A stretch of 56,326 nucleotides of DNA from the NCBI GenBank assembly GCA_024641135.1, contig JAHEDS010000004.1, forward strand, positions 12,891 through 69,216, written 5' to 3'. Positions within the stretch are counted from its first letter, which is position 1. Each line of letters begins with the position of its first letter. Source of the stretch: Flavobacteriales bacterium. GTDB taxonomy: Bacteria; Bacteroidota; Bacteroidia; Flavobacteriales; Flavobacteriaceae. A program made the position numbers and the translations under genes. Of the stretch, positions 9,207-19,737 are shown piece by piece. A model generated the notes under the pieces. It worked only from the letters and a program-made list of their open reading frames with translations. It was not told where the DNA came from and did no database searches.

Positions 9207-10547
9207 TTAAAAGTGAGTCCCTTTAATCTTTTTATAACTAAGAATCGCATTACTATCTGAAAGTAGCGAAACATGATTACAAACAGATAACAAACGGAAA
9301 TACAAACTTTCCTGGTTAACCTTCATTGTTTTTGGCAACCTGTTTAATATAAGCCTGTCATAATTCGAAGCATTTCCATTAAAACTATTATTAACGGCCA
9401 TGGTATAAACCCCTAAAAGCCCTTTTAAAATTTCATAACCAGCAATTTCCTTATCAATTACCTCATCAGACTTATACACCTTTTCAACACTAACCTTTAT
9501 TATGTCATTTATTTGAGCTTCATACCTACTTTTGTCTAATAAAGCTGTTTGAAATTCTCCTTTTAAAATAGCTTCTTCATTATTCATAAAAAGCAAAACA
9601 ACTTCATTTATTAAGGTATTAATTGCCAAGGCTCTTAAATAACTAATTCTGTCTTTTGTGTTTTGTAATTGATGATACTTTTTAGTATTAATAGTATCCC
9701 GAACCAAATTAATTAAATATTCGAGGGCAAATTCTTCTTGGATGAGCCCTAAGTTAATACCATCTTCAAAGTCAATTATCGTATAACAAATATCGTCTGC
9801 TGCCTCTACTAAAAAAGCTAAAGGATGGCGAGAAAAACTTAGGTCTTTTTTACTTCGCCTTTCTAGACCTAACTCAGTTGCAATATTTAAAAAAGAGGCT
9901 TTCTCTTCTTGAAAAAACCCGTATTTCTTATCAGCAATATGTGCAGTTGGTTTTTTAGGCAAAGACTCCTTAGGGTATTTCATAAAAGCTCCTAGCGTTG
10001 CATAACTTAACCGCAATCCGCCTTCTCTTCCTTCTCTGCTTTCGGTTAAAATTTTAAACCCATTAGCGTTTCCTTCAAAATCACACAAGTCCTGATATTC
10101 TTTATCAGATAGCTGTGATTTAAATTCTTTTCCTTTTCCAGTTTTAAAAAATTCACCAATGGCCTTTTCACCTGAATGTCCAAATGGCGGGTTTCCAATA
10201 TCATGTGCTAAAGCAGCAGCAGCAACAATAGCCCCAAAATCATTGGCTTGATAGCCATGAATGGTCTGCAAATGCGGATGCTTTTCAATTAATTTCTGCC
10301 CAACTTTACGGCCTATTGAACGACCAACCACACTAACTTCTAAACTATGAGTTAAACGCGTATGAACAAAATCTGTTTGAGATAATGGAATGACCTGAGT
10401 TTTATCTTGAAGGCTTCTAAATTCAGAAGAAAAAATAACCCGATCATAATCTACCTCAAAACCAAGACGGGTTTCATCCTGCTCTTTTCGTAATCTTTTG
10501 TTTGTATCTCCAAATCGTTTTAACGACAGTAATTGTTCCCAGTTCAT
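9207..10547 (-). CDS. dgt: Deoxyguanosinetriphosphate triphosphohydrolase (dGTPase)
   Basis: HD-superfamily metal hydrolase that splits dNTPs into deoxynucleoside and triphosphate, so it trims dNTP pools and opposes the ribonucleotide reductases found elsewhere in the window. It shows H67 (TRLTHSLEVS), the HD doublet H115-D116 (LAHDIGNPPFGHSGEKAI) and the late aspartate motif EAADDICYTIIDFEDGI. I take the ATG at 10547 (446 residues, MNWEQLLSLKRFGD). A TTG codon two positions upstream is possible but less likely. It was read on the minus strand, ends against dxs, and is divergent from the phosphate block. Confidence 0.93.
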   Translation of the reverse strand: MNWEQLLSLKRFGDTNKRLRKEQDETRLGFEVDYDRVIFSSEFRSLQDKTQVIPLSQTDFVHTRLTHSLEVSVVGRSIGRKVGQKLIEKHPHLQTIHGYQANDFGAIVAAAALAHDIGNPPFGHSGEKAIGEFFKTGKGKEFKSQLSDKEYQDLCDFEGNANGFKILTESREGREGGLRLSYATLGAFMKYPKESLPKKPTAHIADKKYGFFQEEKASFLNIATELGLERRSKKDLSFSRHPLAFLVEAADDICYTIIDFEDGINLGLIQEEFALEYLINLVRDTINTKKYHQLQNTKDRISYLRALAINTLINEVVLLFMNNEEAILKGEFQTALLDKSRYEAQINDIIKVSVEKVYKSDEVIDKEIAGYEILKGLLGVYTMAVNNSFNGNASNYDRLILNRLPKTMKVNQESLYFRLLSVCNHVSLLSDSNAILSYKKIKGTHF

Positions 10548-10605
10548 ATTCAAAATTTATTAATTGCAAGATATGCCAATTTCTTAATCTACACGAAATA
10601 TTTAA

Positions 10606-10628
10606 TTAACATTAATGCATGTCATTTG
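10606..10628 (+). promoter_or_regulatory. Candidate Pho half-box plus -7-like element of first porin gene
   Basis: TTAACAT (10606-10612), then 8 nt, then GTCATTTG (10621-10628, two mismatches to TAnnTTTG). The same motif and the same 8-nt spacing occur in front of the second porin gene at 11732-11754. The partner heptamer 11 bp upstream (GAAATAT) is poorly conserved. If this is the promoter, the ATG at 10615 lies inside it and cannot be the start. Confidence 0.4.
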
Positions 10629-10653
10629 TCCCTATAAAATTAAAATGAATATT

Positions 10654-11679
10654 ATGAAACTAAAATTAATTAGTACAGCTATTTTCCTTTTCGGATTTTA
10701 TCTGTCTCAAGCCCAAGAACCAACTGATTTTCCAAGTGGAAAAATTACTGGTAAAGTATTTTTTAATCATCATCTTGATATCTCTAAAGATTCTGAACAG
10801 AAAAGTAACTTTGAATTACAGAGGGTTTACTTAGGTTATAAGTATAAATTTAATGATAAATTTTCTTCAACAATTATGTTGGATGCTGGTAACGGTTCTG
10901 GAGCAAGTGATTATAGTGTGTTTGTTAAAAATGCACTGTTAGACTACAAGGCCAATGAATGGTTAACACTTACTGCAGGATTATTTGGAATGATTCAATT
11001 TGATGACCAAGAAAAATTTTGGGGTTACCGTTATCTTTATAAAACTTTAGATGATGAATATAAATTAGGGACAAGTGCAGACTTAGGTGTTGGAGCCGAT
11101 GTTAAAATAACCGATCAATTAAATATGTCGTTTATAATTGTGAATGGAGACGGCTATAAAAGAGTTCAAGACCCAAAAGGAAATAACAGATATGGAGCCA
11201 AGATAGTTTATGAACCAAATAAAAGTTTGATGTTAAAAGCCTATATCGACGTTATGAATGGGACTGATGTTGATAATCCAAACCAACTAACCACTTCAAG
11301 TAATATGGCCTTATTTGCAGGTTATAAATTGAAGGATCTTATTCGAATTGGTGCAGAATACAATATTCTTTTAAATGGAGAAACCTTTAGTGATCCAGCA
11401 GCCGATAAAAACTTGAATGGTCTATCTTTTTATTCAACATATAATTTTAATGCAAAGTGGAATCTATTTGGTAGATATGATAAGCTTTCATCAAATAAAC
11501 TAGCTGGACAACAAAATTCTTGGCATTTTTCAGAAGATTCCAATAATTTTCTTTTAGGTTTTGAATACAGGGCAAACAAAAACATTAATACCTCAGTAAA
11601 CTACAGATATACTGATTTTATGGATCCTTTAAATACAAATGCATCTTTAATATATTTTAACCTAGAGTTTAGTTTCTAA
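10654..11679 (+). CDS. Outer-membrane porin-like beta-barrel, probably for phosphate
   Basis: 341 residues from the ATG at 10654, giving a clean signal peptide MKLKLISTAIFLFGFYLSQA followed by QE. The body alternates hydrophobic and polar residues with many aromatic girdle residues (FELQRVYLGYKYKFND, IRIGAEYNILLNGE) and ends in a C-terminal aromatic strand (LIYFNLEFSF), typical of outer-membrane barrels. ATGs at 10645 and 10615 are in frame, but the latter would lie within the probable promoter. The position directly before an OprP-like porin and the pst genes, and the shared promoter layout, suggest induction on phosphate shortage. The substrate is inferred from context only. Confidence 0.8.
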   Translation: MKLKLISTAIFLFGFYLSQAQEPTDFPSGKITGKVFFNHHLDISKDSEQKSNFELQRVYLGYKYKFNDKFSSTIMLDAGNGSGASDYSVFVKNALLDYKANEWLTLTAGLFGMIQFDDQEKFWGYRYLYKTLDDEYKLGTSADLGVGADVKITDQLNMSFIIVNGDGYKRVQDPKGNNRYGAKIVYEPNKSLMLKAYIDVMNGTDVDNPNQLTTSSNMALFAGYKLKDLIRIGAEYNILLNGETFSDPAADKNLNGLSFYSTYNFNAKWNLFGRYDKLSSNKLAGQQNSWHFSEDSNNFLLGFEYRANKNINTSVNYRYTDFMDPLNTNASLIYFNLEFSF

Positions 11680-11720
11680 ATCTGGTTGGTTAAAATAAAT
11701 AGCTTTTTATTTATTTTAAG

Positions 11721-11754
11721 TTAACATTAACTTAACATTGCTGAGGTACTTTTG
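11721..11754 (+). promoter_or_regulatory. Candidate Pho box and -7 element of the porin-pstS unit
   Basis: Two exact TTAACAT heptamers at 11721-11727 and 11732-11738 (4-nt spacer, 11-bp period) form an 18-bp box. After 8 nt comes TACTTTTG (11747-11754), a perfect TAnnTTTG. The 7-4-7 layout directly upstream of the -7/-10 region is that of E. coli PhoB and B. subtilis PhoP boxes. The start codon follows 21 nt later. Confidence 0.6.
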
Positions 11755-11775
11755 CATCATTAAAAATTAATAAAC

Positions 11776-12966
11776 ATGAAACAAAAAATTATTTTAGGAC
11801 TCATCATTTTATTTTCAATAAATTTTGCGAATAGTCAAGAAACAGAAGCTCCTAAATTTGGAAAAGGAATTCTTAATCTTAAAGGGCAAGACAGTAGCTG
11901 GACTATGAAAGTAGGTGCTAGGTTTCAATTTTTAGCAACTTCGCTTATGAGTGATGGAGAAAGCCCTGAAACAAGCTTTTTAATACGCCGTGCAAGATTG
12001 AAATTTGATGGATATGCAGTCTCTCCAAAGCTAGAATATAAACTAGAGTTAGGTTTGTCTAACAGAGATATGTCGGGCGTGTCTGCATTTACAGGAAACA
12101 CACCCCTGTATGTCATGGATGCGGTCTTAAAATATAATTTTTATCAAAATTTTGAACTTTGGGTAGGTCAGACAAAACTTCCTGGCAACAGAGAACGTGT
12201 TATATCATCAGCAAATATGCAACAGGTTGATCGTTCTATCCTAAACGCTAGATTTAATATAGATCGTGATATGGGTTTTCAATTGAGACACCATTTTACA
12301 ATTTCTGATCATTTTGTAGTCAAGGAAATATTTGCACTTTCACAAGGTGAAGGCAGGAATGTGGTAACTGGCAACTTAGGTGGTCATCAATATACCGGAC
12401 GTATTGAATTGTTGCCAATGGGCAATTTTACCGGTAAAGGCGACTATTCTGGATCAGATTTAAAAAGAGAACAAACGCCGAAACTTGCTTTAGGGGTTAC
12501 GTACGATCACAATAATAATGCTGTAAAAACAAGAAGTAACCAAGGGTCTTATATGGTAACTGATAATGGATTTTATGAGACAAACATCAATACGTTATTT
12601 ATTGATGCCATGTTTAAATATAAAGGATTTAGTTTAATGGCTGAATATGCAGACAGAGACGCTAAAGATCCTATTGCAAAAAATTCAGATGGTTCAGAAA
12701 CTGGTGCAATTGTTCAGGTTGGTAAAGGTCTGAATCTTCAAAGCGGTTATTTATTTAAAAATAATTGGGAAGTTTCAGGAAGGTATTCAACTGTAGAATT
12801 AGATAAAGCCATTACTGGAGTTGACCCTGAAAAGCAATATACGCTTGGACTTTCAAAATTTATAGTTGGACATAGTTTAAAAGTGCAAACTGATGTTAGC
12901 CTTATTGATGTGGCTAATAGAGGAGATGAAGTTTTATATCGTCTACAGTTTGATATTCATTTCTAA
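11776..12966 (+). CDS. Phosphate-selective porin (OprP/OprO family)
   Basis: 396 residues with signal peptide MKQKIILGLIILFSINFANS, then QE. The segment WTMKVGARFQFLATSLMSDG and the motifs FLIRRARLKFDGYAVSPKLE, LWVGQTKLPGNRERVISSAN and FNIDRDMGFQLRHHF are typical of the Porin_O_P family, trimeric outer-membrane channels for phosphate or polyphosphate. The last residues (LYRLQFDIHF) form a barrel-closing strand. pstS starts 25 nt after the stop, so both are probably one transcript from the Pho-box promoter. Family call firm; phosphate selectivity supported by context. Confidence 0.9.
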   Translation: MKQKIILGLIILFSINFANSQETEAPKFGKGILNLKGQDSSWTMKVGARFQFLATSLMSDGESPETSFLIRRARLKFDGYAVSPKLEYKLELGLSNRDMSGVSAFTGNTPLYVMDAVLKYNFYQNFELWVGQTKLPGNRERVISSANMQQVDRSILNARFNIDRDMGFQLRHHFTISDHFVVKEIFALSQGEGRNVVTGNLGGHQYTGRIELLPMGNFTGKGDYSGSDLKREQTPKLALGVTYDHNNNAVKTRSNQGSYMVTDNGFYETNINTLFIDAMFKYKGFSLMAEYADRDAKDPIAKNSDGSETGAIVQVGKGLNLQSGYLFKNNWEVSGRYSTVELDKAITGVDPEKQYTLGLSKFIVGHSLKVQTDVSLIDVANRGDEVLYRLQFDIHF

Positions 12967-12991: not shown

Positions 12992-13933
12992 ATGAAAAAA
13001 AGTATTCTAATTATTGCAGTAGTATTACTTAGTGTTGCATGTGGTAACAAAAAATCAAACGATGCAAGTAGTGAAACTGTTGAATTGACTGGGTCTGTAG
13101 CTATTGATGGTTCAGGAACTGTGTTTCCTGTATCTGAAGCGGTAGCTGAAGAATTTTTAAAAGTAGAACCTAGAGTTAAAGTAACAGTCGGCGAAAGCGG
13201 TACTGGAGGCGGATTTAAAAAATTTGGTGCTGGAGTTACAGATATTAGTGATGCCTCAAGAGACATTAAAGGCAAAGAGATTGAATTATGTAAAGAAAAC
13301 GGTATTGAATATGTTCAACTAACTGTTGCTTTAGATGGTATTACTATTGTTGTAAATAAAGACAATACTTGGGCAACTTCAATGACTACTGAAGAATTAA
13401 AAAAATTATGGGAACCAAATAGTAAAATAACTAAATGGAACCAGATAAGAGCAGAATGGCCTAATGAAGAAATTCATTTATATGGACCAAATACCTCTCA
13501 TGGAACATATGATTTCTTTACAGAAGTTATAATGGGTGAATCTGGCGCAAGCAGAACAGATTATAATGCTGTATCAGATTATAATGTTGCTGTACAAGGT
13601 ATTGAAAAAGACAAAAATGCTTTAGGATACTTCGGGTTATCTTACTACGAAGAAAACAAAGACAAGCTAGGTGTGGTTGGTATCGACAATGGTGCTGGAG
13701 TAATACTTCCAAGTATTGAAACCGTAGCTAATAATACTTATGCTCCTTTATCTCGTTCTTTATTTATCTTTGTTAGTAAAAAATCGGCTCAAAGACCAGA
13801 GGTTAAAAAATTCGTGGAGTTTTATCTTGATAATGCTCCTGAATTATGTAAAGAAGTTGGTTATGTTCCAATGCCAAAAAGTGGATATGACGCTCAAAAA
13901 GAAACATTCAAGAATGCTCTTGGTGGGTTATAA
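12992..13933 (+). CDS. pstS: Phosphate ABC transporter substrate-binding lipoprotein
   Basis: High-affinity phosphate-binding protein of the Pst transporter, 313 residues. The signal peptide ends in a lipobox (LLSVACGNKKS, Cys at about residue 17), so it should be a lipid-anchored periplasmic protein. Phosphate-site motifs are visible: IDGSGTVFPVSEAVAEEF, GESGTGGGFKKFGAG and ISDASRDIK. It sits 25 nt after the porin gene and is separated from pstC by 144 nt containing a 14-bp hairpin, a layout that favours more PstS than permease. Confidence 0.95.
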   Translation: MKKSILIIAVVLLSVACGNKKSNDASSETVELTGSVAIDGSGTVFPVSEAVAEEFLKVEPRVKVTVGESGTGGGFKKFGAGVTDISDASRDIKGKEIELCKENGIEYVQLTVALDGITIVVNKDNTWATSMTTEELKKLWEPNSKITKWNQIRAEWPNEEIHLYGPNTSHGTYDFFTEVIMGESGASRTDYNAVSDYNVAVQGIEKDKNALGYFGLSYYEENKDKLGVVGIDNGAGVILPSIETVANNTYAPLSRSLFIFVSKKSAQRPEVKKFVEFYLDNAPELCKEVGYVPMPKSGYDAQKETFKNALGGL

Positions 13934-14077: not shown

Positions 14078-14953
14078 ATGAAATTAAAAGAAAAAATTAT
14101 TGAGGCCTTTTTGTTTTTATGTGCCTCCGTTACTATACTAACTACAATAGGTATTATTATTATCCTATTGTATGAAAGCATTTCGTTTTTTAAAAACGTT
14201 TCCATTTTTGAGTTCTTTACAGACACCCAATGGACACCTTTATTCAGCGAACAACATTTTGGAATTTTACCTCTAGTATCAGGAACATTTTTAACCTCTG
14301 CAATTGCTATTGCAGTGGCACTTCCAATTGGGTTAACAATTGCGATTTATTTAAATATGTATGCCCCTAAAGGTTTTAGAAAAACCTTAAAACCTCTTTT
14401 AGAAATTTTAGCGGCAATTCCTACCGTTGTTTATGGCTTTTTTGCCTTAACTATTGTTACCCCATTTTTACAAACTATATATCCGGATTTAGAAACTTTT
14501 AATTCATTATCTGCTGGTCTTGTAATGGGTATTATGATAATTCCTTTTATTTCCTCATTAAGTGAAGACGCCTTATACGCTGTGCCAAAATCATTAAAAG
14601 AAGCGGCTTTCGGTATGGGATCTACGCGTTTTCAAACATCAATTAAAGTAATGGTTCCTGCAGCTTCATCTGGGATAATCGTATCCGTTATTTTAGCAAT
14701 ATCAAGAGCCATTGGAGAAACAATGATTGTTGCAATAGCAGCAGGGCAACAAGCACAGTTATCATTAAATCCAACGATACCAACACAGACAATAACCTCA
14801 TATATAGTACAGGTTAGCATGGGAGATGCACCGCAAGGCTCAATTGAGTACAAAACAATCTTTGCAGCCGGATTAACCCTGTTTTTATTTACCTTTTCAT
14901 TGAACACTTTTAGTTTTTGGATTAAGAAAAAGTACCAGGAGAAATATGAATAA
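14078..14953 (+). CDS. pstC: Phosphate ABC transporter permease PstC
   Basis: One of the two membrane subunits of the Pst phosphate importer, 291 residues with about six membrane helices. The N-terminal helix ([20 protein letters not shown]) and the EAA cytoplasmic loop ([20 protein letters not shown], then [16 protein letters not shown]) that contacts PstB are clear. The spacer upstream shows no clear TAnnTTTG, so it may rely on read-through from pstS. The stop overlaps the pstA start by 8 nt. Confidence 0.95.
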
Positions 14954-15800
14954 TTTAAAAAAAAATAAAATCATTGATTCATCATTTAAGGTATTTGGTG
15001 TATTGTTTACTTTATTAGGAGTCTTTATTTTAATTATTTTAATCTACAACATTATCAAGGTAGGTTATACAAGAATAAATTGGGACTTTTTATCAAGCTT
15101 ACCTTCAAGAAAACCAGAAAATGCAGGTATTTACACCGCAATTATTGGGACTTTAGATTTAATGCTTTTAACAATCGTATTTGCAATTCCAATTGGGGTA
15201 GGAGCTGGTCTTTATTTAGAAGAATATGCGCATAAATCCCGATTATCAAGACTTTTAGAAATCAATATAGCTAACTTAGCAGGTGTACCTTCCATTATTT
15301 ACGGATTATTAGGATTGGGTATATTTGTTCGCTTTTTTGGATTTGGAGGAAGCATCTTATCGGGAGCCTTAACGATGTCTTTATTAATTTTACCAATTAT
15401 TATTGTTGCTACAAGAGAAGCTATTAAAGCAGTGCCGCATTCATTAAAAGAGGCTTCTTTTGCTTTGGGTGCATCGAAATGGCAAACACTTAGTAAGGTA
15501 GTCCTTCCGTCTTCCTTTGGGGGGATATTGACGGGAATAATCTTATCTTTATCAAGAGCAATTGGTGAAACAGCCCCCTTAATAGTTGTAGGAGCCATGG
15601 CGTATGTCCCATTTGTCCCTCATTCAATTTTTGATACGTTTTCAGTGTTACCAATGCAAATTTTTACCTGGACAACACGTCCACAAGCTGGATTTGCAAT
15701 AGCAGCAGCTGGTGCAATTATAATAATATTAATAATAACCTTTGTAATGAATGGAATCGCTGTTTATTTCAGAAACAAATGGCAAAGCAAATTACAATAA
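14946..15800 (+). CDS. pstA: Phosphate ABC transporter permease PstA
   Basis: Second Pst membrane subunit, 284 residues and about six helices. It shows [40 protein letters not shown] and the EAA loop [20 protein letters not shown], with [20 protein letters not shown], all typical of PstA. It starts inside the last codons of pstC (8-nt overlap), so the two are translationally coupled. Confidence 0.95.
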
Positions 15801-15802
15801 GC

Positions 15803-16618
15803 ATGGGAAAAAAATTAGAAAAACCACTTCCAATGGACAAAGTAGTAGACAAATCATTAAAAAGAACACATACCATAGAAGTAAATGATGCAAAAGTTTG
15901 GTATGATGATTTTATGGCTATAAAAGGCATAGATATGGTTATAAAACCAAACACTGTTACGGCATTTATAGGCCCTTCAGGTTGTGGAAAATCAACTTTT
16001 CTTAGACTATTCAACAGGATGAATGATTATGTTGATGGTTTTAAAATGGAGGGAAAGATAAAAGTTAATGGAAGAAACATATACAAAGACAAAATTCATG
16101 TAGAGGATTTACGAAAAGAAATTGGTATGGTATTCCAAAAGCCCAATCCTTTTCCTAAATCTATCTTTGAAAATGTTGCATATGGTTTAAAAATACAGGG
16201 CATTAAAGACAAAAAACTAATTGCTGAACGTGTTGAAAAGGCCTTAAGACAGGCCGATCTATGGGAGGATGTAAAAGACAAACTTAAAAAGTCAGCTTTA
16301 GCACTCTCTGGGGGTCAACAACAAAGGTTGTGTATTGCAAGAACTTTAGCAGTAGAGCCTTCAATTATACTAATGGATGAACCAACTTCTGCACTTGACC
16401 CTATTTCTACTTCAAAAATTGAAGAATTAATTTTTGAGTTAAAAGAAAAATACACCATTATTATTGTTACACATAACATGCAACAAGCAAGTAGAATAAG
16501 TGATTTTACAGCATTTTTCTATTTAGGAAAACTCATAGAGTTTGATAAAACAAAAAAAATATTTACAAACCCAGAAAAACAACAAACCGAAAACTACATA
16601 ACAGGTCGTTTCGGATAA
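15803..16618 (+). CDS. pstB: Phosphate ABC transporter ATP-binding protein
   Basis: ATPase of the Pst importer. Walker [11 protein letters not shown]-loop [23 protein letters not shown] signature [16 protein letters not shown], Walker [13 protein letters not shown] and switch histidine [10 protein letters not shown] are all intact. I prefer the ATG at 15803, 2 nt after the pstA stop (271 residues). An in-frame ATG at 15779 would add eight residues and overlap pstA by 22 nt. The N-terminus is longer than in E. coli PstB with either start. phoU follows after 12 nt. Confidence 0.95.
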
Positions 16619-16630
16619 AACCCAATAATT

Positions 16631-17293
16631 ATGGTTAATGCAACATACCAACGTGAAGTAATAAATCAGGCTGGATTTGATATGCTTTCAATATGTCTTT
16701 CTCAAATTGAAAAAGCAAAAGAAGCATTTATAAATCATGACAGTGATTTAGCTGAAGAAGTGATGAACATTGAAAATCGAGTGAATGCTCTTGATATAAA
16801 AATTGAAAAGGATTGTGAAAAATTTATTGCACTTTACAACCCTGTCGCTATTGACTTAAGGTTTATAATGGCCATACGTAAAATGAATTTTGATTTAGAA
16901 CGTATTGGAGATCATGCTTATGGAATTGCTAAATATGTAGTAGATGTAGACAAAGACATTCCAACACATTTAATTGATGCTGTACAGTTTAACGAAATGT
17001 TCGATACAATCATAGCGATGTTCGAAAATGTACACGATGCCTATGAGAACAAAAATGTGAAAATAGCCAGAAAAGTATTTAAAAAAGATAAAATTTTAGA
17101 TACCATAAACTTTAATTCATTTAAAATAATCGAAGAAGAAATTTTAAAAGATAATGCCATTATTTCTGAAGCATTAGTGTTATTTTCTGTAATTAAAAAA
17201 TTTGAGCGTGTTGGCGATTTACTTAAAAATATTGCCGAGGAAATAATTTTTTACATCGATGCAGAAATTTTAAAACATCGTAAAAAGAAATAA
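16631..17293 (+). CDS. phoU: Phosphate transport system regulator PhoU
   Basis: 220 residues, all-helical, with two PhoU repeats. The metal-binding signature is seen as IRKMNFDLERIGDHAYGIAK in the first half and IKKFERVGDLLKNIAEEII in the second. PhoU links Pst to PhoR and damps phosphate uptake and signalling in the cytoplasm. It is the last gene of the pst run. No phoR or phoB is present in the window, so the sensor pair must be elsewhere. Confidence 0.95.
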   Translation: MVNATYQREVINQAGFDMLSICLSQIEKAKEAFINHDSDLAEEVMNIENRVNALDIKIEKDCEKFIALYNPVAIDLRFIMAIRKMNFDLERIGDHAYGIAKYVVDVDKDIPTHLIDAVQFNEMFDTIIAMFENVHDAYENKNVKIARKVFKKDKILDTINFNSFKIIEEEILKDNAIISEALVLFSVIKKFERVGDLLKNIAEEIIFYIDAEILKHRKKK

Positions 17294-17418: not shown

Positions 17419-19737
17419 ATGGACAATATTTACTTATTAATGATTGTTGCCTTAGCGGTATTAGCTGTAGCTGACTTGGTTGTTGGGGTGAGCAATGATG
17501 CTGTTAACTTTTTAAATTCTGCTATTGGATCTAAAGCTATTTCATTTAGAACCATTATGATTGTTGCAAGTTTAGGTATTGCAATTGGGGCCATCTTTTC
17601 CAGTGGTATGATGGAAGTTGCTAGAAAAGGTATTTTCAATCCAGGAGAATTTATGTTTAGTGAAATCATGATCATCTTCATGGCAGTAATGATAACAGAC
17701 ATTCTTTTATTAGATTTTTTCAATTCTGTAGGTATGCCTACATCAACAACAGTTTCTATAGTTTTTGAATTATTAGGAGCAGCTGTTGCCATGTCATTAA
17801 TTAAAATCGGTCATGATGGTGGTACCTTTAGTGACCTTCTTAATTATATTAATACTTCTAAAGCATCAGAAATTATTTTTGGAATTCTGCTCTCTGTCAT
17901 AGTCTCCTTTACCATTGGGGCTTTAGTTCAGTGGGTAGCCAGACTCCTATTATCTTATGATTTCGAAAAGAAAGCACAATGGGTTGGAGCATTATTTGGT
18001 GGTTTCGCTTTAACTTCTATTACTTACTTCATTTTTATGAAAGGAATAGGTGGAACTAATTTTGCAAAACAAAGTATTGATTTTATTGGAGGAGAAACCA
18101 TACAATCTTATTTAGAACACAATGTATTATCAATTGTAGGAGTAAGTTTTCTATTTTGGTCATTATTATCTATTGCATTAATAAAATTTGCAAAAACTAA
18201 CATATACAAATTAGTCATCCTTATAGGAACTTTTGCTTTAGCTCTAGCTTTTGCCGGTAATGATTTAGTTAATTTTATAGGCCCATCAACCGGAGCATAT
18301 CAAGCTTATTTAGATTTTATGAATCCGGAAATTAATACTCTTGGATTATCTGCATCAGAATTTTCAATGCATAGTCTTAGTTCTAAAGCAGCTACACCAA
18401 CTATATTATTACTTATCGCTGGCTTAATTATGGTTTTAACACTTTGGTTTTCAACGAAAGCACAAAATGTAGTTAAAACATCTCTGGATTTAGCTAGTCA
18501 AGGAAACACAAAAGAAAGGTTTCAGCCCAATTTTTTATCACGTGTATTTGTTAGGTCTGCAGTTTTAATGTCTCAATTATCAGCATACATTTTACCAGAA
18601 TCATGGCAAGCAAAAATTGACAAACAATTTGAGGTTCCAGTAATTAAAATTAGTAAGGATAAAACTTATGAATTACCGGCTTTTGATTTAGTTAGAGCAG
18701 CTGTTAACTTAATGGTTGCTGCTGTTTTAATTTCAATTGCAACATCTTACAAATTACCATTATCAACTACATATGTAACCTTTATGGTTGCGATGGGAAC
18801 ATCCTTAGCGGATAGAGCTTGGGGTGCTGAAAGTGCTGTATACAGAGTTGCAGGAGTAATAAATGTTATCGGAGGATGGTTTTTTACTGCGTTCAGTGCC
18901 TTCTTTGCGGCAGCTTTAGTGGCTTATCTTTTAAATATAAATATAAATGTGATGTTTCCTCTTTTATTAGTAATTGCCTTCGCAATATTAATTAGAAGTA
19001 CAATGTCTCATAATAAAAAAAATAAAGAAGCAAAAGCTGAAGACAGTCTAATTAAAGCTGAAAGCAGTTCAATACAAGGTGTTATTCATGAAAGTGCTGC
19101 AAATATTGCTAATGTGGTTAAACGTGGCAATAGAATATATACAAATGCCATTAATGGACTTGCTAAGCAAGATTTAACCTTACTAAAAAAGAATAAAAAA
19201 CAAATTAATAAACTTTCTGAAGAGGTTGATGAATTAAGAGATAATATCTTTTATTTTATTAAAAATTTAGACGATTCCAGTATAGGAGCCAGTAACTTCT
19301 ATATACATATTTTAGGTTATTTACAAGATATGATTCAATCATTAGAATACATAACTAAAGTAAGTCATAAACATGTCCTTAATAATCACAAAAAACTGAA
19401 ATTCAACCAAATTAAAGAATTAAAAGAGGTTGATGAGCGTTTTGAACGCCTATTTGAAAATACCAGAAAAGCATTTGAATCGCGTTCTTTTGAAGAAATA
19501 GGTGATATCCTAACTAGAAAAGCAGAAATTTTAAAATTAGTTAGTGATAAAATTCATAAGCAAGTTGAGCGGACAAGAACCGAAGAATCTAGTCCAAAAA
19601 ACACTACTTTATATTTTAGTATTTTATTAGAAACAAAGGATTTATTAAAAACAACAATGAATCTATTGGAAGAATATCATAACTCACATGATAGTTCTGT
19701 AAAACCAGCTACTGTTAAAGGTCCTGATGAAGAATAA
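17419..19737 (+). CDS. Pit-type inorganic phosphate transporter with PhoU-like C-terminal domain
   Basis: 772 residues. The first 540 form the Pho4/PiT permease with its duplicated signature, seen as VGVSNDAVNFLNSAIGSKA at about 23-41 and FAGNDLVNFIGPSTGAY in the second half, plus the later SYKLPLSTTYVTFMVAMGTS. After the last membrane helix (about 510-530) a hydrophilic helical region (about 545-772, VDELRDNIFYFIKNLDD, VDERFERLFENTRKAFESR) resembles PhoU-like/DUF47 domains. Bacterial PiT proteins are usually 400-550 residues with a separate DUF47 partner; here the parts are fused. It lies 125 nt after phoU and probably has its own promoter. It imports phosphate with H+ or Na+. Confidence 0.9.
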   Translation: MDNIYLLMIVALAVLAVADLVVGVSNDAVNFLNSAIGSKAISFRTIMIVASLGIAIGAIFSSGMMEVARKGIFNPGEFMFSEIMIIFMAVMITDILLLDFFNSVGMPTSTTVSIVFELLGAAVAMSLIKIGHDGGTFSDLLNYINTSKASEIIFGILLSVIVSFTIGALVQWVARLLLSYDFEKKAQWVGALFGGFALTSITYFIFMKGIGGTNFAKQSIDFIGGETIQSYLEHNVLSIVGVSFLFWSLLSIALIKFAKTNIYKLVILIGTFALALAFAGNDLVNFIGPSTGAYQAYLDFMNPEINTLGLSASEFSMHSLSSKAATPTILLLIAGLIMVLTLWFSTKAQNVVKTSLDLASQGNTKERFQPNFLSRVFVRSAVLMSQLSAYILPESWQAKIDKQFEVPVIKISKDKTYELPAFDLVRAAVNLMVAAVLISIATSYKLPLSTTYVTFMVAMGTSLADRAWGAESAVYRVAGVINVIGGWFFTAFSAFFAAALVAYLLNININVMFPLLLVIAFAILIRSTMSHNKKNKEAKAEDSLIKAESSSIQGVIHESAANIANVVKRGNRIYTNAINGLAKQDLTLLKKNKKQINKLSEEVDELRDNIFYFIKNLDDSSIGASNFYIHILGYLQDMIQSLEYITKVSHKHVLNNHKKLKFNQIKELKEVDERFERLFENTRKAFESRSFEEIGDILTRKAEILKLVSDKIHKQVERTRTEESSPKNTTLYFSILLETKDLLKTTMNLLEEYHNSHDSSVKPATVKGPDEE

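Follow-up and report, generated by a model that had tools for sequence, protein, structure and literature searches.

The PhoB regulator of Escherichia coli controls pst and porin genes among its targets, a likeness to the site described here, and the PhoP box of Bacillus subtilis consists of TT(A/T/C)ACA repeats. The enterobacterial small RNAs MicF and MicA repress porins by pairing near the start of the porin mRNA; to our knowledge, no Hfq is known in Bacteroidota. Flavobacteriaceae make up a large share of the marine plankton, a setting in which growth is often limited by phosphate. In the accessible text on Bacteroides fragilis, PhoB shifted the mobility of the pst promoter and was needed for pstC expression at low phosphate, and neither a box sequence nor a porin-linked RNA was found in that text (PMC3547664). 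For Flavobacterium johnsoniae, low phosphate induced phoB and a TonB-dependent transporter gene of the phoBR cluster, and pstS was reported in 26 of 102 Flavobacterium strains; the main text, as available, lacks the terms motif, promoter, binding site and Pho box (PMC8115612). Pho boxes were predicted computationally near plcP in marine heterotrophs, the flavobacterium Dokdonia sp. MED134 being among the strains, and the available portion of that study contained neither a box sequence nor a statement on whether any predicted box is flavobacterial (PMC4796936). Porins are absent from the main text of a small-RNA paper on F. psychrophilum, the available part of which is our source for the TAnnTTTG promoter consensus and its position at -12 to -5 (PMC9723704). 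Searches of the open-access literature (Flavobacterium, Flavobacteriaceae, Bacteroidetes) revealed no Flavobacteriaceae Pho box sequence, and no porin-linked RNA of the matching kind was found in the open-access literature either, which is not proof of absence.

The window, i.e. the whole 56,326-nucleotide stretch of Flavobacteriaceae DNA analysed here, carries the following features around the site under study.

9207..10553, minus strand: HD-domain gene (PF01966), an upstream neighbour common to some relatives
10585..10628, plus strand: second promoter, with lattice TAAT at -40, AAAT at -29 and TAAC at -18 and TTTG at 10625-10628
10615..11679, plus strand: second outer-membrane barrel ORF, BBP2/OmpL-like (PF13505, PF07642)
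11711..11714, plus strand: putative weak third half-site TTAT, at -40 from TTTG, a lattice position conserved in relatives
11721..11738, plus strand: probable Pho box, TTAACAT twice, with TAAC at -29 and -18 from TTTG and an 11-bp period, conserved in relatives
11747..11754, plus strand: -7 promoter element TACTTTTG (TAnnTTTG), read from the sequence
11759..11775, plus strand: putative 17-nt 5' leader, its start site placed from the -7 position
11776..12966, plus strand: Porin_O_P family porin (PF07396, 2.2e-09)
12992..13933, plus strand: pstS-like binding protein (PF12849, 1.1e-36), named from family and gene order
14078..14953, plus strand: pstC-like permease (PF00528), presumed pstC rather than pstA from gene order
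14946..15800, plus strand: pstA-like permease (PF00528), presumed from gene order
15779..16618, plus strand: pstB-like ATPase (PF00005), presumed from gene order
16631..17293, plus strand: phoU (PF01895, 4.2e-37)
17419..19737, plus strand: PHO4-family phosphate permease (PF01384, 1e-30), its membership in the unit being uncertain

The first-pass annotation had described two exact TTAACAT heptamers with an 11-bp period that end 8 nt before a perfect TAnnTTTG and precede a porin and pstS. The sequence bears this out: the heptamers lie at 11721-11727 and 11732-11738, the 8-nt gap leads to TACTTTTG, and a Porin_O_P gene and a substrate-binding protein gene of the pstS kind follow. The site thus contains at least two 7-nt direct repeats with an 11-bp period at a fixed spot just 5' of the promoter element, with the second TAAC at -18, likewise in relatives, and TACTTTTG provides the TAnnTTTG -7 element of a Bacteroidota sigma-A promoter. 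The strict heptamer pair did not hold as the conserved core, which consists of two or three copies of TAAC (or GAAAC) spaced with an 11-bp period. The promoter element of the second promoter overlaps the called start of the barrel ORF (window positions 10615-10653), so the true start codon probably lies past the promoter, near 10645 or 10654.

With a probability of roughly 0.85, we read the site as a Pho box, at which PhoB would bind the TTAACAT half-sites and activate porin-pstSCAB-phoU in phosphate starvation; the regulator of the starvation response very probably docks on this repeat, ahead of an operon for phosphate uptake. Upon starvation, the PhoR kinase would phosphorylate the PhoB-type response regulator, protomers of which would line up head to tail along one face of the DNA, occupying the half-sites at -29 and -18 from TTTG (and weakly that at -40), which are spaced by 11 bp. 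Bound PhoB would then bring in the Bacteroidota sigma-A polymerase to turn on the unit, and the neighbouring porin promoter at 10585-10628, built alike, would respond together with the main site.

Best matches to the PhoB model TIGR02154 were fetched from 40 genomes, 29 of which had a match at 1e-60 and none of which reached the curated cut-off. The PhoB-like regulator in the genome of the window (G000:C87:24292-24948; 5.5e-63, below the curated cut-off) is directly followed by a PhoR-like kinase frame, identified by eye. Thirty regulator loci were read and 27, from 27 genomes, were used, the remaining three (L127, L137, and L139) having the recognition helix of another subfamily. The relaxed repeat TAAC-N7-TAAC occurred upstream of phoB, pointing away from it, in 22 of the 27 genomes including that of the window (shuffle mean 0.57, maximum 4), and pointed toward phoB in two (shuffle mean 0.25, maximum 2). 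A weight matrix derived from the porin sites alone scored above the 95% shuffle level at 13 of the 27 phoB loci, 12 of them pointing away, as compared with 4 of 35 unrelated upstream regions from the genome of the window, one of which is an exact motif copy. The genes divergent to phoB, as judged by eye, were pstS, a porin followed by pstS, TonB-dependent receptors, a small sorted protein, and other secreted proteins. That the repeat beside phoB points to the divergent gene was counted against the Pho-box reading.

We further assessed the repeat at 40 PhoX or PhoA-family phosphatase genes out of 49 loci (L144-L192), leaving out weak or fragmentary PhoX rows (L158-L162), later pieces of split matches (L189, L192), and second phosphatase genes (L187, L188). 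The repeat pointed toward the gene in 5 of 40 cases and the other way in none (shuffle mean 0.29); it was not found at the other 35, nor at L187 and L188. The porin-derived weight matrix showed hardly any enrichment at the phosphatase genes, with 5 of 40 exceeding the 95% shuffle level where 2 would be expected, no more than at the unrelated upstream regions. The genome of the window contains no PF00245 or PF05787 phosphatase. A wider box pattern, chosen without regard to genes, gave 28 matches against 15 for the reversed pattern over 149 family genomes, namely 11 porin loci, two alkaline phosphatases, one PHO4 permease, one phoB, and 13 others (two TonB-dependent receptors, two cupin-like genes, two aspartyl-tRNA synthetase genes identified by eye, and seven further). 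Blastp recognised nine of the 11 porin loci, in two of which ~315 nt separate the box from the porin; the other two are L208, which has a Porin_O_P frame, and L202, which has the RNA gene described below on its downstream side. In relatives, the box therefore marks some of the phosphate genes, namely porin-pst, PHO4 and a number of phosphatases, together with the flank of phoB; a substantial share of the wider-pattern matches is due to chance. In L202 and L208 the box precedes a gene for a small CarboxypepD_reg-like protein, with this RNA gene downstream in both and the Porin_O_P frame in L208; in L200 and L215, from two genera, it lies between the aspartyl-tRNA synthetase-like gene and a divergent gene (MORN_2 in L200).

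These data bear on a proposal that we regard as improbable, namely that the lattice serves a different response regulator of the OmpR family, one that controls outer-membrane porins. Tandem half-sites spaced by 11 bp are usual across the OmpR class at large, the TIGR02154 matches stay below the cut-off, and most phosphatase genes lack the box. In contrast, the repeat flanks phoB in 22 of the 27 genomes and, in the box scan, precedes genes for PhoB, PHO4 and alkaline phosphatases; it also lies before pst genes. Of the available literature, the description of tandem 11-bp half-sites for PhoB/PhoP (PMC4415409, in the part available) was counted for this proposal, and binding of the pst promoter by PhoB in Bacteroides fragilis (PMC3547664, likewise in part) against it.

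The Pho-box reading draws further support from conservation of the site before the orthologous porin. The porin was sought in 60 relatives and matched in 35, and upstream DNA was read at 30 loci. Some variant of the block GGAAACATTaagTTAACATTagtnntaGTtcTTTGCaGCGACAAAAACTAA precedes 18 of the 21 closest orthologues (L031-L051, at least 50% identity), with a degraded second half-site in four (L043, L044, L046, and L050); the three without it are the window, which keeps the box and not the leader, L045, and L049. The leader at this position is GACAAAAACTAATA or close to it in most relatives, and that of the window differs. A search of 149 family genomes with AACATT-N5-AACATT-N11-TTTG yielded 45 matches, spread over 43 genomes, compared to seven for the reversed control. 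A related porin lies downstream, by blastp, in 26 of the 30 of these loci that were read, including the weak match at L072, which Pfam confirmed as Porin_O_P. The other four comprise a Porin_O_P paralogue (L067), the same place as L034 (L076), a locus at which the automated search returned no long porin frame but which still has leader and RNA (L078), and what looks like a chance match (L064). Near the contig ends of L074 and L067, the porin promoter stretch forms an inverted repeat, either an assembly effect or a real inversion.

When 100 loci, picked for carrying the RNA and leader described below and not for the box, were aligned on TTTG, T[AT]A[CT] appeared at -40 in 96% and at -18 in 86%, and AAC at -28 (half-site -29) in 95%. 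Their consensus -7 element is GTtcTTTG, so the perfect TAnnTTTG noted in the first-pass annotation stands for the window and not as a rule; the poorer element suggests that the promoters of relatives would depend more on an activator. This point weighs against taking the conserved block as part of the core promoter or as a structural element that needs no activator. Such a reading can appeal to the end of the block near the -7 element and to the perfect element of the window, and it is very improbable given that poorer element in relatives, of the kind an activator-dependent promoter would have, and the same repeat near phoB.

Taken alone, the motif is not significant, and it is position, register, and conservation that are. 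The only exact TTAACAT-N4-TTAACAT in the window is that at 11721-11738, and matches with up to three mismatches are at chance level there (41 against 35.6 expected from shuffles). Genome-wide, three exact copies were found, and with up to two mismatches there were 124 matches against 149 for the reversed pattern, i.e. no excess in the strict search. A genome-wide check had been proposed in the first-pass annotation; the reading failed it in the strict form and withstood it in the relaxed 11-bp TAAC form. Neither of the two other exact copies stands at a recognisable phosphate gene. One has an AraC-like regulator gene and a divergent gene for a secreted protein as neighbours, and the other precedes a small secreted protein (names assigned by eye). 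In the same genome, several AACAT repeats, partly spaced by 11 bp, lie 5' of a gene for a 212-residue secreted-looking protein (L092, G000:C34 near 13814). A chance repeat in AT-rich DNA, which these frequencies in window and genome would allow, is already refuted by conservation, the register being kept in many genera before the same gene and shared by the neighbouring porin promoter. The Pho-box layout proposed at the outset is supported by the relaxed repeat beside phoB and by its conservation before the porin.

In relatives, a conserved putative RNA gene of ~110 nt, ending in a terminator, lies just 5' of the porin promoter, after the upstream gene and within ~300 bp upstream of the porin start. 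It is present at 38 of 43 porin loci (L032-L044, L046-L048, L050, L051, and 20 of the 22 kept from L061-L090). These 43 were kept from 60 porin-type loci (L031-L090) after leaving out nine distant porins (L052-L060, none with RNA or leader core), five duplicates, the chance match L064, the paralogue L067, and L074 with its inverted repeat at the contig end. The terminator has an 8-bp stem, each pair of which is changed on both sides in at least one of the 38 sequences. The promoter of the RNA gene, aligned on TTTG at 85 loci, shows T[AT]A[CT] at -51 (86%), -40 (81%), and -29 (68%), which is the porin promoter lattice shifted up by one half-site. The RNA stretch TATTAGTTTTTGTCG matches the porin leader CGACAAAAACTAATA as its reverse complement. 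With the -7 element placed at -12 to -5 (PMC9723704, as far as available), this leader would start approximately where the mRNA does.

A model built from the 38 sequences matched 71 of 149 family genomes at E 0.01 and 66 at 1e-4, and had no match in the genome of the window; in an order-wide draw of 119 genomes it matched three at 1e-4, all Flavobacteriaceae. The combined RNA and leader pattern was found in at least 119 stretches of named genomes, and the 80 matches listed come from genera that we place in Flavobacteriaceae, from Flavobacteriales or from Bacteroidia. Rfam gave no match on 10 loci. The leader 14-mer with up to one mismatch occurred 95 times in 18 RNA-bearing genomes against 147 for the reversed sequence, with no consistent second place; at most two occurrences per genome are the leader and the RNA themselves, and two exact copies lie elsewhere, in G090 and G100. 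In one genome, box and RNA gene are both present twice, ~117 kb apart (G169:C1 near 1063418 and 1180685). A further TAACATTAAATTAACATT-like block lies 5' of the RNA promoter at 8 of 20 loci (L032-L036, L038, L042, and L043), 200-420 bp upstream of the porin start and in some near a divergent gene.

Two other interpretations of this stretch were weighed. A peptide gene is disfavoured by indels in the alignment (by eye). A two-armed DNA operator formed by the complementary stretches was rejected: from lineage to lineage, bulges displace the extended pairing (by eye), and a terminator closes the copy on the RNA side, which suits RNA pairing better.

Presence of the RNA is associated with the complementary leader. 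The core GACAAAAA was found at 37 of the 38 RNA-bearing loci, the remaining one having GGCAAAAA, and at none of the five without RNA (the window, L045, L049, L079, and L089; Fisher 6e-6, uncorrected for kinship and not from a preset test, since the core was adopted as the measure once the loci had been inspected). The first leader test, with G-U pairs counted and a run of at least 10, gave a weaker difference (37 of 38 against 2 of 5, p 0.003). HD-domain homologues adjoin the porin promoter in L079, L089, and others, and in the window the second barrel ORF, a second porin gene, stands where relatives have the RNA gene. A genome of the same genus (G002, 93% porin identity) keeps both RNA and core.

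Over the 38 loci, the duplex energy of each RNA with its own leader averaged -24.6 kcal/mol as compared with -21.9 for swapped partners (0 of 10,000 permutations as low); over 100 loci the values were -25.97 and -22.69. Because relatives share both parts, loci were also paired greedily by porin similarity and then swapped. Among 47 informative pairs, the matched combination was better in 32, worse in 8, and tied in 7 (sign test p 0.0002), with 10 to 0 below a similarity of 0.70, 22 to 8 at 0.70 or above (p 0.016), and 9 to 5 (p 0.42) for the closest pairs at 0.85 or above. Pairs of low and intermediate similarity thus carry the signal, and the closest pairs are too alike to be informative; the complementarity to the leader co-evolves, weakly among the closest pairs.

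We consider it likely that the phosphate-controlled porin-pst promoter of Flavobacteriaceae has as its partner a dedicated gene for a small RNA, and that this gene has an 11-bp half-site array of its own, set in the same helical register. The RNA stretch UAUUAGUUUUUGUCG would pair with the first ~15 nt of the porin mRNA, cover the short leader, and so block porin translation. If both RNA and porin-pst are made in starvation, they would constitute an incoherent loop that sets porin translation independently of pst transcription. The RNA would have been lost in the genome of the window and at least two other lineages, the porin leaders then drifting out of complementarity. This looks like an undescribed, putative phosphate-linked small RNA lost from the genome of the window, which most likely keeps only the PhoB-box part of the proposed scheme. 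With a defined lattice, the Pho regulon can be recognised in genomes and metagenomes, and the linked RNA (66 of 149 family genomes, E <=1e-4) offers a natural system for the co-evolution and joint loss of a small RNA and its target.

Compared with described systems, the site resembles the Pho box of E. coli PhoB in its tandem 7+4-nt direct repeats 5' of the promoter element (PMC4415409, from the text available). It differs in the half-site (TTAACAT here, CTGTCAT in E. coli) and in having a TAnnTTTG-type promoter rather than a -10 hexamer. The recognition helix reads RTIDVHIRKLR here, against what we take to be RTVDVHIRRLR in E. coli PhoB, and one helix residue, presumably number 201, differs, with Lys here for Arg. 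The B. subtilis PhoP box has a half-site nearly identical to TTAACA and the same 11-bp period but belongs to a different phylum, promoter type, and regulator, and the likeness may reflect convergence on AT-rich DNA. Bacteroides fragilis, with its PhoB-dependent pstC, shares the phylum of the window but belongs to the order Bacteroidales. In likeness to the Pho regulon of F. johnsoniae with its TonB-dependent transporter gene, four relatives have receptor-like genes (by eye) divergent to phoB, with 11-bp repeats between. The small RNA predicted here from sequence is similar to MicF and MicA in pairing with the start region of a porin mRNA; unlike them, it is encoded directly 5' of its target on the same strand, under a phosphate-type promoter array, and its pairing site would be the very 5' end of the mRNA.
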